Source of the DNA: a virus
Strand: one strand, 5' to 3'
DNA length: 51,631 bases
IMG/VR virus record: IMGVR_UViG_3300030107_001538
Coordinates: 1-51,631 of that record
Shown here: piece after piece, positions 4,993 to 45,866 of the stretch
Layout: each line of letters starts with the position of its first letter
Position numbering within the stretch: position 1 is the first letter of the stretch
Made by a program: the position numbers and the translations under genes
Notes under the pieces: model-generated
What the model saw: only the letters and a program-made list of their open reading frames with translations
What the model was told of the DNA's origin: nothing
The model's database searches: none

Positions 4993-7900
4993 ATGGCACA
5001 AACATATACAAGACAAAGTTCTTTTATTGATGGTGATACTATCACCGCAGCATTATTTAATGATGAATACAATCAGTTAGTAAATGCATTTGCATATTCA
5101 TCTACAAGTGCTGCTAATACTGGACACAGACACGATGGTACTGCTGGGCAAGGTGGTAATATTCCACAAATTGGTGATTTAGATTTTTTAAACAAGATAG
5201 TTGTTGATAGTACAAACAATAGATGGGGATTTTATGTAGAAGTTTCTTCTGCAGCAGTAGAACAAATAAGAATACAAGATGGAGCTATTGTTCCTGTTAC
5301 AGACAACGATATAGATTTAGGAACAAGCTCATTAGAATTTAAAGATGCATTTTTTGATGGCACTTTAACTACAGATGCCTTAGTAGCTGATACTGCAGAC
5401 ATTAATGGTGGTACAGTTGATGGTGCAACTATCGGAGCTAACTCAGCTTCTACAGGTGCATTTACTTCTGTAACTACTACAGGTAATGTCGATGTTGGAG
5501 GTAATTTAACAGTCACAGGTACTACTACATTTAATGGTGGTACATTAACATTAGGTGATGCAGCAGACGATAATGTAGTTTTTGGTGCAGATGTCAACTC
5601 AAATATTATTCCTAATACAGACAATACATACGACTTAGGAAGTTCTTCTCAAGAGTGGAAAGATTTATACGTTGATGGTATAGCTTACCTAGATGGTATT
5701 AACTTTAATGGTACAGCAATTACATCAACTGCTGCTGAGTTAAATATTTTAGATGGTGTCACATCGACTACAGCCGAACTTAATATATTAGATGGAGTAA
5801 CTTCTACAACTGCAGAGCTTAATATTCTTGATGGCGTTACTTCAACTGCTGCTGAATTAAATATTCTAGATGGTGTTACAGCTACAGCAACTGAAATAAA
5901 TATTCTTGACGGAGTTACATCAAGCACGGCAGAATTAAATATTCTAGATGGAGTTACTGCTACAGCAACTGAAATAAATTTACTTGATGGTGTAACATCT
6001 ACAACTGCTGAATTAAATATTCTGGATGGTGTTACTAGTACTGCTACAGAATTAAATTTACTTGATGGTGTTACTGCAACTACAACTGAATTAAACTACG
6101 TTGATGTAGCTACAGCAGGAACTGTAGAAGCTTCTAAAGCTATTGTAGTAGATAGTAACAAAGACTTTACTGGTGCAAGAAACATTACTATTACAGGTGA
6201 ACTTGATGCTGCTACTTTAGATGTATCAGGCGATGTAGATATTGATGGTACATTAGAAGCCGATGCTATTACTGTAAATGGTACAACTTTAGCAGAAACT
6301 ATTTCTGATACTGTTGGAGCTATGGTAACTTCTAATACAGAAACAGGAGTTACAGTTACTTATGATGACAGTGATAATACACTAGACTTTGTAATTGGCA
6401 CACTTAATCAAGATACTACTGGTACAGCAGCACTAGCTACTCAAGTTACTATATCTGCTAACAATAGCACAGATGAAACTATATTTCCTGTATTCGTTGA
6501 CGGAGCTACTGGAAGTCAAGGTTTAGAAACAGACACAGGATTTACTTATAATCCATCTACCGGTTTATTAACTGCTACTGGATTTTCAGGAAACTTAACA
6601 GGTACACTACAAACTGCAGCACAAACTAATGTTACAAGTTTAGGAACATTATCAGCGTTAACTATTTCAGGTAATTTAATAGTAGATACATCTACTCTTA
6701 AAGTAGATAGTTCTAGTAATAGAGTTGGGATTGGAACTGCATCACCAAGTTCATTACTTACAGTAGAAGGAGATATACGACAAACCTCTGGTGATTTACT
6801 ATATGCTGGTGGTGGTAACTGGGATATTAAACATTTAGCTGATGACCAAAGCATAGTTTTTTATACGTCAGAAAGTGGTTCAGCAACAGAGAAAATGCGT
6901 ATCAAGGCAAATGGTGCGATTGGCATTGGCACTAGCTCACCTTCTGCAAGTCATAAACTTACTGTAGGTGGAGATACTAAGTTTACTGGTCAGCTATCCA
7001 TACTTGATAATCAATTAATTAAAATGGGAGATGGTGAGGATTTTGCTCTTTACCATGACACTACTGTTGGTAATGTAATAAAAAGTGCCACTTCTGATAT
7101 GGATATTTCAATACTCGGAAATGATGGTGGCTCTACGATTACAGCTCTTAAATTTGATATGTCTGCTGCAGGTCGTGCAGTATTTAATGCAGGAGCTAAT
7201 TTTTCTGACCATGTAAATTTTGATGACAATGCTAAAGCAGTGTTTGGTGGTGGAGATGATTTACAGATTTATCACAATGGAACTAATTCTTATATTGCTG
7301 ATGCCGGAACTGGTGATTTAAGAATATTAGCTACAGACTTTAGACTTTTAAACGCTGCAGAAGATGCAAATTTAATTAGAGCATTTAATGGTGCAGAGGT
7401 TGAGTTATATCATAATGGAACAGAAAGACTAGCTACCACTTCAAGCGGTGCAACTGTTACAGGTACTTTAGTATCTGATGGCTTAACAGTAGATACATCT
7501 ACTTTAGTTGTAGATGCTACTAATAATAGAGTAGGTATTGGTAATGCTTCTCCAGATGTAAGTTTAGATATAGGAAGCCTTACAGATGCTATTCATGTAC
7601 CAGTAGGTACTACAGCTCAAAGACCTACTGGAGCTGCAGGTTACTTTAGATATAATTCAGAAACCGGTAAATTTGAAGGTTTTACAAATGAATGGGGTGC
7701 TATAGCTGGTGGTGGTTCAGGTACAAACATGGATACCAACATCTTTGCAGGTGATGGTAGTGATACAACCTTTACACTAAGCACAGCACCAGATAGTGAA
7801 AATAACTTAATGGTATTTATTGATGGTGTATTTCAAGCTCAAAATGTTTACTCAGTATCAGGAACTACACTAACTTTTGCAACTGCTCCGGCTAATGGTA

Positions 7901-9075
7901 GAGTTATAACAGTCTATCACAGCACAACAACTGTTGGTGGTTCTAATAACTCAATAGCTACAATGACTGGTGATGGTAGTGATACAACACTAACATTATC
8001 TACTGCACCAGTACATGAGAACAACGTATCAGTATTCTTTGATGGTGTTTATCAAAGCAAATCAAACTACAGTATATCTGGTACAACTCTTACATTCTCT
8101 ACAGCACCTCCAAGTGGTGTAGCTGTAGAAGCTATTACTGCAACTAATACAAGTATTACAACTGCTACTCAGCTTTCTGATGCAGATGGCGATACACTCA
8201 TACAGACTGAAGAAAGCTCTGACGAAGATAAAATACGTTTTGATACTGGTGGTACTGAACGTATGATTATTGATGACTCTGGAAATGTAGGTATAGGAGA
8301 AACTTCACCTTTAGCTACCCTTCACATCAAACAAGGAGATAGTGGATTAAGCTCACTTAATGCAGCAGCACATCATTTATTTTTAGAAGATACTGGTGCT
8401 AATGGACCGGGAATTACTTTAGCATCTGGAACAACTTCTAACTGTAGTTTGGTTTTTGGTGATTCTGATTCTAATTATCAAGGCTTTATCCTTTATGATA
8501 ATTCAGCAGATGCCATGAAGTTTGGAACAAATGGTGGTTCAGAAAGAATGCGAATTCTATCTGGTGGAAATGTTTTATTAAATCAAACAGCTACAGCAGA
8601 CTCAGGTGTTGCCGATGGAAGATTGGAAATAACCAGAGGTAGTCAACATTGCATTAACTGTCATGTTACTGGTACAGGTAATTCTACTTTAGTTGCTTTT
8701 ATAAATGATAATGGTTTTGTCGGTGGTATAAACACTAATGGCTCTGCTACTGCTTTTAACACATCATCAGACGCTAGATTAAAAAATGTTTTAGGAGAGG
8801 CTAAAGGTCTTGAAATTGTAAATGCTTTGAATCCTGTAAACTTTGAATGGAAAAGTGACGGTAAGATACAAGATGGACTCATAGCACAAGAGGTAGAAAA
8901 AGTGTTTCCTGAAGCTGTTTCAGAACCAGAATTAGAGGGAGAGTGGTATTCAGTGGATTATTCTAAACTGGTAACACCTCTAATAAAAGCTATGCAAGAA
9001 CAACAAGAACTAATAGAAACTCAACAAACCACTATTAATGATTTAAAAACTAGAATAGAAACATTAGAAAGTTAA
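4993..9075 (+). CDS. Giant tail fibre with 13-residue repeats and S74 chaperone
   Basis: A 1360-residue protein, the largest gene here. In order: an N-terminal attachment region with a GHRHDGTAGQGG stretch (about 43-54); beta-rich fibre; ten tandem 13-residue units (246-375) of the AELNILDGVTS type; a long fibre shaft with several GIGT/ERM-type motifs; two VFIDGVFQ/VFFDGVYQ-like segments (about 935-1020); and a C-terminal S74 chaperone from about 1250 with Ser1259 and Lys1264 in SDARLK. It would be the main receptor-binding fibre. It ends in the same helical LKTRIETLES-like tail as the first fibre. The repeats make it a good candidate for length variation by recombination. Confidence 0.85.
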   Translation: MAQTYTRQSSFIDGDTITAALFNDEYNQLVNAFAYSSTSAANTGHRHDGTAGQGGNIPQIGDLDFLNKIVVDSTNNRWGFYVEVSSAAVEQIRIQDGAIVPVTDNDIDLGTSSLEFKDAFFDGTLTTDALVADTADINGGTVDGATIGANSASTGAFTSVTTTGNVDVGGNLTVTGTTTFNGGTLTLGDAADDNVVFGADVNSNIIPNTDNTYDLGSSSQEWKDLYVDGIAYLDGINFNGTAITSTAAELNILDGVTSTTAELNILDGVTSTTAELNILDGVTSTAAELNILDGVTATATEINILDGVTSSTAELNILDGVTATATEINLLDGVTSTTAELNILDGVTSTATELNLLDGVTATTTELNYVDVATAGTVEASKAIVVDSNKDFTGARNITITGELDAATLDVSGDVDIDGTLEADAITVNGTTLAETISDTVGAMVTSNTETGVTVTYDDSDNTLDFVIGTLNQDTTGTAALATQVTISANNSTDETIFPVFVDGATGSQGLETDTGFTYNPSTGLLTATGFSGNLTGTLQTAAQTNVTSLGTLSALTISGNLIVDTSTLKVDSSSNRVGIGTASPSSLLTVEGDIRQTSGDLLYAGGGNWDIKHLADDQSIVFYTSESGSATEKMRIKANGAIGIGTSSPSASHKLTVGGDTKFTGQLSILDNQLIKMGDGEDFALYHDTTVGNVIKSATSDMDISILGNDGGSTITALKFDMSAAGRAVFNAGANFSDHVNFDDNAKAVFGGGDDLQIYHNGTNSYIADAGTGDLRILATDFRLLNAAEDANLIRAFNGAEVELYHNGTERLATTSSGATVTGTLVSDGLTVDTSTLVVDATNNRVGIGNASPDVSLDIGSLTDAIHVPVGTTAQRPTGAAGYFRYNSETGKFEGFTNEWGAIAGGGSGTNMDTNIFAGDGSDTTFTLSTAPDSENNLMVFIDGVFQAQNVYSVSGTTLTFATAPANGRVITVYHSTTTVGGSNNSIATMTGDGSDTTLTLSTAPVHENNVSVFFDGVYQSKSNYSISGTTLTFSTAPPSGVAVEAITATNTSITTATQLSDADGDTLIQTEESSDEDKIRFDTGGTERMIIDDSGNVGIGETSPLATLHIKQGDSGLSSLNAAAHHLFLEDTGANGPGITLASGTTSNCSLVFGDSDSNYQGFILYDNSADAMKFGTNGGSERMRILSGGNVLLNQTATADSGVADGRLEITRGSQHCINCHVTGTGNSTLVAFINDNGFVGGINTNGSATAFNTSSDARLKNVLGEAKGLEIVNALNPVNFEWKSDGKIQDGLIAQEVEKVFPEAVSEPELEGEWYSVDYSKLVTPLIKAMQEQQELIETQQTTINDLKTRIETLES
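5728..6117 (+). repeat. Ten tandem 39-bp units coding a 13-residue fibre repeat
   Basis: Ten consecutive 39-bp units, each coding a version of T-x-x-E-L/I-N-I/L-L-D-G-V-T-S/A. The tenth is degenerate (TELNYVDVATA). The amino acids are far better conserved than third codon positions, so the array is under protein-level selection and is not a very recent DNA duplication. In the fibre it probably forms a regular shaft. Confidence 0.9.
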
Positions 9076-20033: not shown

Positions 20034-21056
20034 ATGAAAAGAGGGCTAATTCTTGGAACATTATTATTATTTGCATTAGGTATTCAAGCAGACCAAACGG
20101 GAGATTGTACTGCTGGTACTCAGTATTGTGAACAAAATAGTTTAAATACTACAAATACTACTACTACTAATAACACCAATACAAATACTAATACCAATAA
20201 TAATACTAATACTAACACTAATACCAATACTAATACGAATAATAATACTAATAATAATACTAACGTAAATACAAATACTTCTACAAATACAAATGTAAAT
20301 ACAAATACATCAACAAATACTAATAATAATAATAATGTAAATACAAATAATAATACATCAACATCTAATTCAACTGTAAACTCTACAGTTAATCAAAATG
20401 TTAGTAATACCAATACTAGCACTGCTACAAATAATAATAATAATACGAATACAAATAATACTACATCTGATAACACTAATAAAAATTATAATGAATCTAA
20501 TTCTAATTCTAATGTAAACACCAGTAATACCAATACAAATAATTCAACTGCTAATAATACTAATAAAAATTACAACGAATCTAATTCTACTCAAACTATT
20601 AATCAAAACATAAATCAAAAAGCTCCTCCTGCTTCTGCTATTGCCCCCAGTATAATGTCTTACTCACAAGACCTCTGTACCACTGGAGTATCGGGAGCTT
20701 TTCAAGGTCAACTATTTGGTTTTTCTGGTGGTAAAGCAGTACGAGACGAGAATTGTGAAAGATTAAAATTATCTAAATATTTATATGATACTGGTATGAA
20801 AGTAGCAGCAGTATCTATTCTTTGCCAAGACCCTAGAGTATTTAAAGCTATGGGTAATGCTGGAACTCCTTGTCCATACAAAGGTAAAATAGGAGAGGAA
20901 GCTAAAGTTGCTTGGGAAAAAAATGTTGAAGATACTCCGACATACAAAGAAGATTTAAAAGATTATATTTCTAAGTGTAAAAAAACTACAAATCCAAAAG
21001 GTATAAGAAAATCTGGTAGCACGTGCCGAAAAGAATTTCATTCTACAATTAGCTAG
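20034..21056 (+). CDS. Exported Asn/Thr-repeat protein with conserved Cys-containing C-terminal domain
   Basis: 340 residues. A clear signal peptide (MKRGLILGTLLLFALGIQA, cleavage about 19) is followed by two Cys, then about 150 residues almost entirely Asn and Thr with some Ser/Val (about 38-190). The C-terminal 135 residues are a normal-composition domain with six Cys and a conserved-looking ERLKLSKYLYDTGMKVAAVS stretch (242-261). I recall relatives of this C-terminal domain near holins in other marine phages; their function is unknown. Export and paired Cys suggest a periplasmic or surface role. It shares one base with the next gene (TAGTG). Confidence 0.7.
   Translation: MKRGLILGTLLLFALGIQADQTGDCTAGTQYCEQNSLNTTNTTTTNNTNTNTNTNNNTNTNTNTNTNTNNNTNNNTNVNTNTSTNTNVNTNTSTNTNNNNNVNTNNNTSTSNSTVNSTVNQNVSNTNTSTATNNNNNTNTNNTTSDNTNKNYNESNSNSNVNTSNTNTNNSTANNTNKNYNESNSTQTINQNINQKAPPASAIAPSIMSYSQDLCTTGVSGAFQGQLFGFSGGKAVRDENCERLKLSKYLYDTGMKVAAVSILCQDPRVFKAMGNAGTPCPYKGKIGEEAKVAWEKNVEDTPTYKEDLKDYISKCKKTTNPKGIRKSGSTCRKEFHSTIS
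20148..20603 (+). repeat. Low-complexity AAT/ACT codon tract (Asn/Thr)
   Basis: Roughly 450 bp built from mixed AAT, AAC, ACT, ACA and ACC codons giving alternating Asn-Thr. Units such as AATACT and AATACA recur many times. Codon choice is mixed, so the protein repeat is kept while the DNA has drifted. The tract is open to slippage and length change. Confidence 0.85.
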
Positions 21057-41618: not shown

Positions 41619-41793
41619 AAAAGAAGGTAGAAGATATGCAGGTCCTAATATACTTGCCGAGACTTGGGAGTTAGCTCAAGAGGCTGCTCAGTTTAATAAT
41701 TTGATATTAGTTGGCGAATTTGTGGAAATAATTGCAGATGGCGATTCAATGCACTATTTAGAAAAGCATACAAAACCAAAGACTTTACATTAA
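41593..41793 (+). CDS. Small acidic protein ahead of iscU
   Basis: 66 residues, alpha/beta (KIFLTEIEKEGRRYAGPNIL; NNLILVGEFVEIIADGDSMH). It overlaps the terminase gene by 26 bp and shares one base with iscU (TAATG), so it is translated with it. Function unknown. Confidence 0.5.
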   Translation: MKIFLTEIEKEGRRYAGPNILAETWELAQEAAQFNNLILVGEFVEIIADGDSMHYLEKHTKPKTLH

Positions 41794-42242
41794 TGGCATA
41801 TTCTAGACAAGTAGTAGATAGGTTTGAAAGTGTTTTAAATAACCCGGACAAACATGCAGTCGGTAGGTTTGACCCTAACGACCCTAATGTGGCTACCGGT
41901 TTAACCGGAGCACCTGCTTGTGGCGATGTTATGAAGTTGCAATTAAAGTTAGCTGGTGATATTATCGAAGATGTAAAGTTTAAAACTTATGGTTGTGGTT
42001 CGGCAATAGCTTCTAGCACTATGTTTGTTGATATGTTAAAAGGTAAAACTATTACCGAAGCTAAACAAATAAAAGATGCAGATATAGCTAAAGCTCTAGA
42101 TTTACCTCCAATAAAACTACACTGTAGTGTTTTAGCCGAAGAAAGTATTACCAAAGCAATAGCAAATTGGGAAGCAAAAGTAAAACATAGACAACATAAT
42201 CAATATGGCAGCAAAGAAGAAAAAGAAAAGTACAGTAAATAA
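41793..42242 (+). CDS. iscU: IscU-type Fe-S cluster scaffold protein
   Basis: 149 residues. Very close to bacterial IscU over residues 1-128: Cys43 and Asp45 in PACGDVMKLQ, Cys68 in TYGCGSAIASS, and Cys111 in KLHCSVLAEES after the LPPIK motif (104-108) that the chaperone HscA binds. His110 matches the conserved ligand. All scaffold residues are present, so it should assemble 2Fe-2S clusters with host IscS. The last 20 residues are a basic tail coded in the overlap with the next gene. A host-derived auxiliary metabolic gene; no other isc gene is nearby. Phage Fe-S demand, or host NrdA/redox support during infection, are possible reasons. Confidence 0.92.
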   Translation: MAYSRQVVDRFESVLNNPDKHAVGRFDPNDPNVATGLTGAPACGDVMKLQLKLAGDIIEDVKFKTYGCGSAIASSTMFVDMLKGKTITEAKQIKDADIAKALDLPPIKLHCSVLAEESITKAIANWEAKVKHRQHNQYGSKEEKEKYSK

Positions 42243-43402: not shown

Positions 43403-43498
43403 ATGGCTCAACCACTACAGAATCAACCACAACTGCTAACCGCAGAAGAATTGAAAGAATTGATTAGACAACAATCATTAGCTTGTCATAATCAGTAA
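43403..43498 (+). CDS. 31-residue peptide before the riboswitch
   Basis: Begins MAQPLQNQPQLLTAEELKEL and ends in a short polar tail. Starts 3 bp after the preceding stop and ends just before the riboswitch stem. Gln-rich, helical. May be a real small gene or a spacer; coding evidence is limited to frame and spacing. Confidence 0.4.
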   Translation: MAQPLQNQPQLLTAEELKELIRQQSLACHNQ

Positions 43499-43612
43499 AT
43501 CGTTCAGCTCGTAAGAGCCGGAAGTAGATTAGAAAAGAAAACCTCCCTAGTAATAGGGGTAAGCTAAGTACTAGCAATAGGAACAGAGACCGACATCTAT
43601 CGAAGGAACGCA
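43499..43612 (+). promoter_or_regulatory. Candidate glutamine riboswitch (glnA / downstream-peptide type)
   Basis: Conserved parts of the glutamine riboswitch are visible in order. CGTTCA (43501-43506) opens P1. Hairpin GCTC-GTAA-GAGC (43507-43518) is followed by CGGAAGTAG (43519-43527). GAAGGAACGC (43602-43611) closes P1, with GAACG pairing to CGTTC. Between them are hairpin CCCTA-GTAA-TAGGG (43545-43558) and GCTA-AGTAC-TAGC (43563-43575). The next gene is a short conserved peptide, as in the downstream-peptide variant of cyanobacteria and marine phages. It would sense glutamine, i.e. cell nitrogen status. Confidence 0.8.
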
Positions 43613-43618
43613 ATGGGT

Positions 43619-43637
43619 GATGTACGAAAGTACATTT
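43619..43637 (+). promoter_or_regulatory. GAAA-tetraloop hairpin, possible expression platform
   Basis: ATGTAC (43620-43625), loop GAAA, GTACAT (43630-43635), extendable by a G-U pair, followed by TTTAATTTAATT. It stands between the riboswitch and the ribosome site (CTGGAG) of the 43664 gene. It may be a weak terminator or a switchable stem controlling translation. Confidence 0.45.
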
Positions 43638-43663
43638 AATTTAATTGCAAACTGGAGATTAAT

Positions 43664-43780
43664 ATGTATTGCTATAGAGGTATTAGATATAATGCAAAAG
43701 ACCTTAAGAAGCAAGTCAAGAAATCTAAGAAAAGTGACACTGTTACTTATCGTGGAATAACTGGCAAACTTGCTGCTTAA
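43664..43780 (+). CDS. Riboswitch-controlled YRG peptide (DUF4278-like)
   Basis: 38 residues with two YRG motifs: CYRGIRYN at 3-10 and TYRGITG at 28-34, with a Lys-rich linker. DUF4278 proteins of cyanobacteria and cyanophages have the same YRGxxY units. Downstream-peptide genes under glutamine riboswitches are short peptides like this. GGAG precedes the ATG. The function is not known; binding to a host nitrogen-metabolism target is a possibility, as small inhibitor peptides do in cyanobacteria. Confidence 0.75.
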   Translation: MYCYRGIRYNAKDLKKQVKKSKKSDTVTYRGITGKLAA

Positions 43781-43820
43781 ACAAATTTCCTGAGTAAGAA
43801 GTTAAACTGCTCAATTTATT

Positions 43821-43975: not shown

Positions 43976-44248
43976 ATGAAGATGTTACCTGATGGTTATC
44001 GTAGACGTTCTTCGTCAACTATTCCTTTTGGTTACGAAGAAGATGAGTTAGTTGAAGGTTATTTAAAACCTATTGAACATGAATTAGATATTTTACGAGA
44101 AGTATCAGAAGCTATTTTTCATAAAGAAATTAGTTTAGGTATTGGAGTAGATTGGTTAGAAGCTGAAACTGGGAAAAAAATATCAAGACCGGGATTAAAA
44201 AAACACGTAGATAAAGTATATGGAAGATTGGGAAAAAAATCCACATAA
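43976..44248 (+). CDS. HTH-like DNA-binding protein ahead of TerL
   Basis: 90 residues. A basic start (LPDGYRRRSSSTIPFGYEED) with LKPIEHELDILREVSEAIF, then GIGVDWLEAETGKKISRPGLKKHVDKVY, which reads as a helix-turn-helix of the type seen in resolvase-like and small terminase proteins. It overlaps the large terminase gene by 29 bp. It could be the true small terminase, in which case the 41184 protein has another role, or a packaging regulator. Confidence 0.55.
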   Translation: MKMLPDGYRRRSSSTIPFGYEEDELVEGYLKPIEHELDILREVSEAIFHKEISLGIGVDWLEAETGKKISRPGLKKHVDKVYGRLGKKST

Positions 44249-45866
44249 GTACTTGACAAACTCTCAAGGAGAGTATATACTAAACAAAGATGGTACACCT
44301 CGTAAAAAAGGTGGTAGACCTAAAAATTCTGAATTATCTGATATTCAATTAGCTTTAAGAGCTAAAAAGAAATTAGATAAAAAGAATAATAAAGTAAAAA
44401 AACTAACAAGAAGTTTAGCTAAAGTACAAAAAGAAGCTAAAGCAGAAGAAAAAGCTTTAACTTCAAATGTTCTAACTCAAGAAGACACTAAAGTTCTTCC
44501 AGATGAAATACAAGAACATTTAGATACAACTGGGTCTCATGTGGCATTTATGCCTAATGAAGGACCACAGACAGATTTTTTAGCTGCATCAGAAAAAGAT
44601 GTTCTTTATGGAGGTGCAGCCGGTGGAGGAAAAAGCTTTGCAATGCTTATCGACCCACTAAGGTATTGTCATAAGTCAGCTCATCGAGCTTTAATACTTA
44701 GAAGGTCAATGCCAGAGCTTAGAGAACTTATAGATAAATCTAGGGAATTGTATCCAAAAGCTTTTCCCGGAGCTAAGTTTAAAGAAGTAGAAAAGTTATG
44801 GAGCTTTCCTTCTGGAGCTAAAATAGAATTTGGATTTTTGGAACGAGATGCAGATGTGTATCGTTATCAAGGACAAGCCTATAGTTGGATTGGTTTTGAT
44901 GAAATAACACATTTACCAACAGAGTTTGGTTGGAACTATCTAGCATCTAGGTTAAGAACAACTGACCCAGAGCTACCAACGTATTTACGTTGTACAGCTA
45001 ACCCGGGAGGGGTAGGTGCTCAATGGGTTAAAAAAAGATACGTTGAACCTGATGAACATAATAAAAGTTTTATTGGTCATGATGGTTTAACTAGGAAGTT
45101 TATCCCAGCTCGATTGCAGGATAATCCTTTCCTAGCCGAAGACGGTGAGTATGAACGAATGTTACTTTCGTTACCTGCTGTACAAAGAAAGCAGTTATTA
45201 GAAGGTAATTGGGATATTAGTGAAGGTGCTGCTTTTGCTGAGTTTGACCCAAGTATGCATGTAATTACTCCTTTTGAAATACCGACTTGGTGGGAAAGAA
45301 TAAAAGCAGTAGACTATGGATATGCTTCAGAGAGTTGTTGCCTTTGGGCTGCAGTAGACCCTGAAGATAAGACCATCATTATATATAGAGAATTATACGA
45401 AAAAGGTCTTACAGGGGAAGCTCTAGGTAACAAGATGACAGATTTAGAAAGTAGTGAAGTTAAGTCAATAACAGGTGTATTAGATACTGCTGCTTGGTCA
45501 AGGACAGGTTATACTGGTCCTACTATTGGTGAAACCTTAATTAAACAAGGTCACAAATTAAGACGAGCTGATAAGAATCGAATAGCAGGTAAGATTCAAA
45601 TACATGAACATTTGCGACAAGACAGGAATACCGGCAGACCTAGATTGCAAATATTAAGTACATGTACGAATTTAATAAAAGAATTACAAAGTTTGCCTTT
45701 ATCACGTTCTAATTCTGAGGATGTAGATACACATTCGGCTGACCATGCATATGATGCTTTACGTTATATGATTATGAGTAGACCAAAAATGGACCATCCT
45801 TATGATAGAATGTTGAAAATTAAAACAGATATATATGAGCCATCAGATGGCACATTTGGATACTAA
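44220..45866 (+). CDS. terL: Terminase large subunit
   Basis: 548 residues. ATPase: Walker A GGAAGGGKS (131-139), Walker B SWIGFDE (222-228, Glu228 catalytic), coupling motif CTANPGG (258-264). Nuclease: Asp365 in AVDYGYAS, Asp422 in VLDTAAW, and the C-terminal acidic pair in DHAYDALRYM. It pumps DNA into the prohead and cuts it. A Lys-rich N-terminal extension (about 26-80) may bind DNA or the small subunit. A consensus promoter lies within the first 25 codons. It joins the portal gene as TAATG. Confidence 0.95.
   Translation: MEDWEKNPHKYLTNSQGEYILNKDGTPRKKGGRPKNSELSDIQLALRAKKKLDKKNNKVKKLTRSLAKVQKEAKAEEKALTSNVLTQEDTKVLPDEIQEHLDTTGSHVAFMPNEGPQTDFLAASEKDVLYGGAAGGGKSFAMLIDPLRYCHKSAHRALILRRSMPELRELIDKSRELYPKAFPGAKFKEVEKLWSFPSGAKIEFGFLERDADVYRYQGQAYSWIGFDEITHLPTEFGWNYLASRLRTTDPELPTYLRCTANPGGVGAQWVKKRYVEPDEHNKSFIGHDGLTRKFIPARLQDNPFLAEDGEYERMLLSLPAVQRKQLLEGNWDISEGAAFAEFDPSMHVITPFEIPTWWERIKAVDYGYASESCCLWAAVDPEDKTIIIYRELYEKGLTGEALGNKMTDLESSEVKSITGVLDTAAWSRTGYTGPTIGETLIKQGHKLRRADKNRIAGKIQIHEHLRQDRNTGRPRLQILSTCTNLIKELQSLPLSRSNSEDVDTHSADHAYDALRYMIMSRPKMDHPYDRMLKIKTDIYEPSDGTFGY
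44253..44281 (+). promoter_or_regulatory. Sigma70 promoter inside the start of terL
   Basis: TTGACA (44253-44258), 17-bp spacer, TATACT (44276-44281), the same boxes as the promoter at 41148. The spacer contains an inverted repeat CTCTC-AAG-GAGAG (44261-44273) that could be an operator. It would make a second, perhaps late, rightward transcript for portal and head genes. Confidence 0.5.

Follow-up and report, generated by a model that had tools for sequence, protein, structure and literature searches.

Positions 43499 to 43813 on the plus strand of a virus record (IMG/VR IMGVR_UViG_3300030107_001538; 51,631 bases, G+C 33%; the whole stretch is referred to here as the window) hold a compact cassette: a glutamine riboswitch aptamer, a structured leader, an open reading frame (ORF) for a 38-residue peptide with two YRG motifs, and a closing hairpin. 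The aptamer (43499 to 43614) follows a 31-aa ORF (43403 to 43498) directly, starting at the base after its stop codon. An initial annotation, made from the letters alone, had called a glutamine riboswitch here from three elements, CGTTCA (43501 to 43506), CGGAAGTAG (43519 to 43527), and GAAGGAACGC (43602 to 43611). All three are present, and a cmscan of the whole window upheld the call with a score that was not poor: 49.4 bits to the type 1 (glnA) family RF01739, over the gathering score of 35 (E = 6.8e-8). This was the sole Rfam family over its gathering score, and the model alignment bridged an insert within P3. The Downstream-peptide model that had been suggested alongside it (RF01704, type 2) had no match in the window, even at E values up to 10. 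The thermodynamic stability of the aptamer (z = -0.64) is insufficient alone to identify it, and its homology to RF01739 is established by the covariance model and the comparative data.

The RF01739 features are present in the window: P1 (CGUUC/GAACG), P2, P3, and the CGGAAGUA and GAAGG junctions. Structure was compared across 38 distinct sequences with a long P3, taken from phages and from the SAR86 group, by which we mean 101 genomes from the order of one SAR86 genome. Both strands of P1 (43501 to 43505, paired with 43606 to 43610), the J2/3 core CGGAAGUA (43519 to 43526, within the Rfam consensus), and the J3/1 core were invariant, the 5' strand of P1 in 38/38 sequences. P2 (GCUC-GUAA-GAGC, 43507 to 43518) covaried at all four of its pairs, with 100% of cells paired. 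P3 (43527 to 43601) carries a nested insert that is common to SAR86-group chromosomes and phages and reads GAAAACCU, a hairpin at 43545 to 43558, G..AGCUAAGUA, a hairpin at 43571 to 43580, and GAACAGAGACCGA. The two GTAA-loop hairpins noticed in the initial annotation are P2 and the first of these insert hairpins (CCCTA-GTAA-TAGGG).

The insert helices also covary (four of six pairs in the first hairpin, two of two in the second), and 98% of cells were paired over P2 and both insert helices. The covariation score of 0.34 was reached in none of 500 shuffles (0.12 ± 0.01), and slid structures scored 0.10 at most, demonstrating a conserved secondary structure. The segments between the helices are almost constant (GAAAACCU, AGC(U)AAGUA, GAAC(A)GAGACCGA), and this conservation outside the helices points to a folded module rather than a plain stem extension. 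The AGUA..GAA of the insert echoes the CGGAAGUA/GAAGG junction of the aptamer and is what we take to be a second bulged-G (loop E) type motif. No other credible Rfam match to the insert was found in eight SAR86-group loci. Speculatively, the P3 module could serve as an additional sensing domain placed inside the glutamine aptamer.

Between the aptamer and the ORF, a helix designated P4 (GCAAU/AUUGC) with an inner hairpin (AUGUAC-GAAA-GUACAU) spans 43610 to 43648 (z = -2.26), ends just 5' of the Shine-Dalgarno region, and is a putative expression platform. RNAalifold on the 3' leader alignment returned zero consensus pairs; P4 was therefore assessed sequence by sequence with shuffles. Most of the 19 leaders compared retained the outer stem through altered pairs (GCAAU/AUUGC, CAUAGG/CCUAUG, AAUAGG/CCUAUU, CGUU/AACG). 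The helix ended 4 to 6 nt before the Shine-Dalgarno region in nearly all leaders, and the mean stem length of 4.6 bp was reached in none of 500 shuffles (mean 3.1, maximum 4.4). The initial annotation had proposed that the extra P3 hairpins and the GAAA hairpin (43620 to 43635) form a phage-specific expression platform. For the P3 hairpins this is ruled out because the same type of ~65-nt insert recurs in SAR86-group chromosomes. For the GAAA hairpin, the sequence of the helix is indeed peculiar to the phage clade of the window, but its placement is common to most SAR86-group and other phage leaders. SAR86-group leaders (for example, L469, 1632 to 1690) contain a second conserved element between the aptamer and the Shine-Dalgarno region, GUUGAGAAGGGUGUA-hairpin-UGUACGAAAUCGAAACG, that the window clade does not have.

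The Shine-Dalgarno sequence GGAG (43654 to 43657) lies six nt before the ATG, and CUGGAG is kept in nearly all relatives. No terminator-like site was found on the forward strand between 43100 and 44300, and promoter-like sites there were no commoner than in shuffles. With no intrinsic terminator between the aptamer and the ORF, translational control is most likely, and the simplest layout is a longer transcript in which the switch acts on translation.

The ORF (43664 to 43780), which the initial annotation had correctly described as the next gene, encodes MYCYRGIRYNAKDLKKQVKKSKKSDTVTYRGITGKLAA. Residues 3 to 33 resemble the domain DUF4278 (Pfam PF14105, E = 6.2e-5), with a score of 23.7 bits that is slightly below the cutoff of 25.3; relatives in a phage (L236, 28.6 bits) and in SAR86 (L422, 26.4 bits) pass this cutoff. 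Under a rule of two or more YRG motifs, at least 110 distinct proteins of 35 to 67 aa were found downstream of glutamine aptamers, with two or three motifs each. Median pN/pS was 0.083 over 606 pairs of ORFs of similar length, which are not independent pairs, and the YRG ORFs are, on this codon-level comparison, under strong purifying selection. AlphaFold gave a weak model (pLDDT 72.6, pTM 0.24) suggesting a pair of hairpins that turn at RG, and no relative was found in the PDB. Proteins of this kind also occur apart from the riboswitch. A small alphaproteobacterial genome (L500, ~1240 to 1600) has two neighboring three-YRG micro-ORFs with no glutamine aptamer nearby, and larger alphaproteobacterial genomes (L499, L501 to L503) encode three-YRG DUF4278 proteins (e.g., MSEKEIYRGTEVKKGNKDVDAHHEYKEGEKVNYRGSSYK...) without a glutamine aptamer.

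The same cassette occurs in SAR86-group chromosomes. The aptamer pattern was present in 45 of the 101 genomes, with no hits for a reversed-pattern control, compared with 5 of 385 alphaproteobacteria, and DUF4278 was found in 12 of the 101. The long-P3 pattern matched in 50 of the SAR86-group genomes; on reading, 30 had the nested insert and the remainder had tandem short aptamers. A YRG ORF followed the aptamer at all 24 long-P3 loci inspected, one example reading MSTYRGIKVTENNLHVENKNTQPGVYRGVKHDAIESDKSEKLQNGVYRGVKHSA, near the MATYRGIKVTPENTHVEKAKAQPGIYRGIKHDAEPSKSTKVKHGIYRGTKWTN of phage L236. The two surroundings that were read are housekeeping chromosome contexts, not prophages. In L497 the cassette lies between suhB and secF, at a distance of ~2 kb from amt and PII, and in L498 the order is lepA-lepB-rnc-era-[cassette]-recO-acpS-adk; gene names were read from translations, and PII alone was confirmed with Pfam. 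A G+C-rich hairpin and T-run resembling an intrinsic terminator close most of the SAR86-group cassettes and several of those in phages; the window clade has a UGAGUA/UGCUCA hairpin instead. Glutamine riboswitches of the SAR86 group, often in tandem, also precede glutamine synthetase, glutamate synthase, and a Gcw_chp protein (L394 to L408, L427 to L466). The alphaproteobacterial aptamers (L409 to L420) precede ammonium transporters and circularly permuted ATP-grasp proteins, and none of five alphaproteobacterial DUF4278 loci had an adjacent aptamer.

Relatives were collected by sequence patterns; a genome-scale RF01739 scan had missed the match in the window itself. Pattern scans of viral contigs returned at least 120 long-P3 and at least 120 short-P3 stretches. 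Among the matches listed, a YRG-type ORF followed 93 of 112 long aptamers, excluding 5' tandem members and contig-edge cases, but only 19 of 99 short ones; both counts are loose, since a single YRG or YKG was accepted and a few false positives are included. One group, with MSKVVYRGVEYDT..., consists of cyanophages (98% identical to Synechococcus phage DSL-LC02, 51% to P-SSM2). In DSL-LC02 and P-SSM2 (L505 and L504, both ~1300 to 1470), the aptamer itself contains an ORF of ~50 codons, placed 5' of the YRG gene. The beginning of this ORF comes immediately behind CGTTCATCT, and in DSL-LC02 there is an overlap between its stop codon and GACTGAAGGAACG. Three contigs (L008, L009, and L012) and similar cyanophage-type contigs have another P3 arrangement, CGGAAGTAAGCCGAC.CGGAACG-GAT-CGTTCA-hairpin-ACGCAAACGCCGACTGAAGGAACG, which resembles two interleaved or nested aptamers with a modified J2/3 and usually stands before a YRG ORF.

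The phage itself is, from its terminase (44220 to 45866), a marine HMO-2011-like podovirus whose closest cultured relatives infect SAR11. The terminase is 65 to 66% identical to those of Pelagibacter phages HTVC115P, 103P, and 104P and ~48 to 50% identical to those of HMO-2011 and Roseobacter CRP phages, and the portal, major head protein, DNA polymerase, and primase-helicase families are consistent with a podovirus. A cyanophage origin is ruled out because the terminase groups the genome with HMO-2011-like pelagiphages. The lytic lifestyle assumed in the initial annotation is plausible; no integrase was noticed, although no search was aimed at integrases.

Comparison of these phages demonstrates that the cassette is mobile. 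It lies upstream of the terminase in 11 of 80 terminase relatives; the cassette is missing from 51 others whose available upstream sequence spans 1,750 nt or more, and none of these has the YRG ORF without the riboswitch. The homologous regions of six cultured relatives have no aptamer. In phage L238, whose terminase is 94% identical, the stop codon of the 31-aa ORF joins directly to ...TTATTATGCC, so that ~315 nt (43499 to 43813) are precisely missing, and presence and absence are similarly clean among phages with 94 to 98% identical terminases. The missing segment includes the closing hairpin, UGAGUA-loop-UGCUCA (43791 to 43813). A hairpin of the form UGAG(U/C)A-loop-UGCUCA directly follows the YRG stop codon in the window, L018, L234 to L236, and L254 to L261, with differing downstream genes. 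P3 is of the ordinary short type in L254 to L261 and long, as in the window, in other relatives, and the ORFs carry two or three YRG motifs. The gene after the closing hairpin has no obvious Shine-Dalgarno sequence. Together with the chromosomal copies, the cassette appears, from sequence, to be a portable nitrogen-status switch common to phages and SAR86 bacteria.

We favor, at a probability of roughly two in three, a riboswitch of host type that turns translation on in response to glutamine and whose product is a DUF4278 microprotein with a role in nitrogen control. L-Glutamine would bind the type 1 aptamer with its extra module nested in P3 and stabilize P1; through the adjoining P4, the Shine-Dalgarno sequence at 43654 would become usable. 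The YRG microprotein would then be translated when cell glutamine is high, and it would bind a nitrogen-assimilation protein, dampening or retuning nitrogen assimilation during infection. Glutamine binding by the window RNA, the translational mechanism, and the peptide target are steps that we infer. The ON direction is expected by analogy with gifB, because glutamine activates IF17 translation (PMC6316151; PMC11288750). Cyanobacterial glutamine riboswitches are mostly upstream of DUF4278 genes, and expression rises with glutamine or nitrogen excess (PMC6316151, PMC11288750). The association with DUF4278 thus makes plausible the link to nitrogen control that the initial annotation had drawn. 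Host glnA, gltBD, and amt are up-regulated during pelagiphage infection (PMC12753301), giving a phage reason to act on nitrogen assimilation. However, because the unit looks host-derived, interference with the host is one reading among others.

Several observations weigh against this favored reading. The Pfam score of the window peptide falls short of the cutoff, and the DUF4278 part of Synechocystis IF17 is reportedly dispensable for glutamine synthetase inactivation (PMC6316151). Partition-function folding gave no consistent shift in Shine-Dalgarno accessibility between the P1-formed and P1-open states, where the open-state constraint let the P1 strands pair elsewhere. The host signals also diverge, the closest cultured phages infecting SAR11 and the closest cellular cassette being that of SAR86.

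With the same riboswitch and peptide, glutamine might instead repress a peptide needed under nitrogen scarcity. The Shine-Dalgarno sequence is predicted to be mostly paired in several leaders when P1 is forced, but the YRG/DUF4278 genes of known response (gifB, PMM1846) go up with glutamine or nitrogen excess (PMC6316151, PMC11288750), and we regard such an OFF switch as unlikely. We think it equally doubtful that the peptide acts directly on glutamine synthetase as an analogue of the inactivating factors. The N-terminal part of IF17 is DUF4278, a role in regulating glutamine synthetase has been suggested for small DUF4278 proteins of picocyanobacteria (PMC6316151), and glutamine synthetase controlled by a glutamine riboswitch is also present in the SAR86 group. 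However, the peptide corresponds to just the portion of IF17 reported to be dispensable for inhibition.

A somewhat more speculative form of the nitrogen-control proposal is that YRG micropeptides imitate the PII T-loop as free-standing peptides. Induced by glutamine in phage and SAR86 alike, they would act as decoys that obstruct or adjust receptors of this loop, for example Amt or GlnD. YRG is the tripeptide at the modified Tyr, which stands at the apex of the loop. The SAR86 PII adjoining the cassette reads SETYRGASYEVDT, with ETYRGASY as its YRGxxY context, and the micropeptide motif is [VIT]YRG[VI]K[YHFW]. As in PII, Y, F, W, or H stands five residues after the Tyr in 73 of 105 YRG copies (41 clusters), copies that are not independent, against a background of 5%. 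Residues +3 and +4 differ (V/I-K in the micropeptides, A/S-E/S in PII), and T-loop mimicry is therefore offered as a hypothesis only. The modified residue of the PII T-loop is Tyr51 (PMC4285133).

It is improbable that the ORF serves the downstream packaging genes as a leader or regulatory element instead of encoding a functional protein. The ORF has a product of only 38 aa, sits among small genes shortly before the terminase, and is followed by a conserved hairpin, but the gene after the cassette varies between relatives, the SAR86-group and many other phage cassettes end in a G+C-rich hairpin and T-run typical of an intrinsic terminator, and selection on its codons is strong. A decayed, non-responsive riboswitch retained by chance is least probable of all: one insert position deviates from the closest relatives (AAAAG versus AAAGG before AAAACC), but every position of the aptamer core is intact, the changed P2 pair is compensatory (G-C for U-A), and neighboring phages retain the structure.

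Other genes in the window include a NifU/IscU-type Fe-S scaffold gene (41793 to 42242; Pfam NifU_N, E = 1.7e-37; PHROG class host takeover). Its product is 65% identical to SAR86 IscU and 62% identical to the best alphaproteobacterial homologue, values about equal that do not decide the host, and a phage-like contig binned as Synechococcus (L314) encodes a homologue with 78% identity. Two repeat-bearing proteins were also seen, one of 340 aa with long stretches of Asn/Thr repeats (20034 to 21056) and one of tail type in which TAELNILDGVTST recurs in tandem (4993 to 9075).

The aptamer, its ligand, and the cyanobacterial DUF4278 link were already known (PMC6316151), as were glutamine riboswitches in cyanophages. 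They have been reported in the Melnitz methylophage, Pelagibacter phage Mosig, and Prochlorococcus phage AG-345-P14 (PMC9004378), and Riboswitch Scanner analysis of pelagimyophages reported none (PMC7029224). In a mostly open-access search, the Melnitz paper alone combined glutamine riboswitches and SAR11. No title or abstract in the literature searched, which included few subscription papers, concerned a SAR86 glutamine riboswitch, and this absence is weak evidence. No prior report was found of the SAR86/heterotroph-phage form, the conserved nested P3 module, or the likeness of YRG to the PII T-loop, which is likewise weak evidence. The literature searched treats glutamine riboswitches and DUF4278 as chiefly a cyanobacterial matter. 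In the present case the two make up a compact unit that can be transferred and that is found in SAR86-group chromosomes and in podoviruses related to SAR11/SAR116 phages, among the most abundant organisms of the sea. This makes available a defined RNA, whose conserved P3 module is undescribed, together with a defined peptide family for studying how streamlined bacteria and their phages read nitrogen status, and it offers testable targets for the orphan domain DUF4278.

The window element shares the core consensus, the P1-P3 layout, and a small DUF4278-type ORF directly downstream with the type 1 glnA motif (RF01739; PMC2864571, PMC6316151). However, it adds a conserved, branched P3 module of ~65 nt that the 53-position Rfam model does not have, and this form comes from the SAR86 group and from phages of heterotrophs, not from cyanobacteria. 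Cyanobacterial gifB/IF17 and picocyanobacterial DUF4278 genes (PMC6316151) likewise combine a glutamine aptamer with a YRG/DUF4278 protein, but the proteins described here are 35 to 67 aa with two or three YRG repeats, and the window peptide is the DUF4278 part only, without the glutamine synthetase-inactivating region that IF17 (GifB) has beyond it. The riboswitches of Melnitz, Mosig, and AG-345-P14 are also in phages of streamlined marine bacteria, but those were reported with tmRNA, and DUF4278 is unmentioned in that report (PMC9004378). A functional precedent, with no homology claimed, is Methanosarcina sP36 (PMC10714827), a 61-aa protein without a riboswitch that inhibits ammonium transport with AmtB1/GlnK1 and thus exemplifies the tuning of PII and Amt by a small protein.
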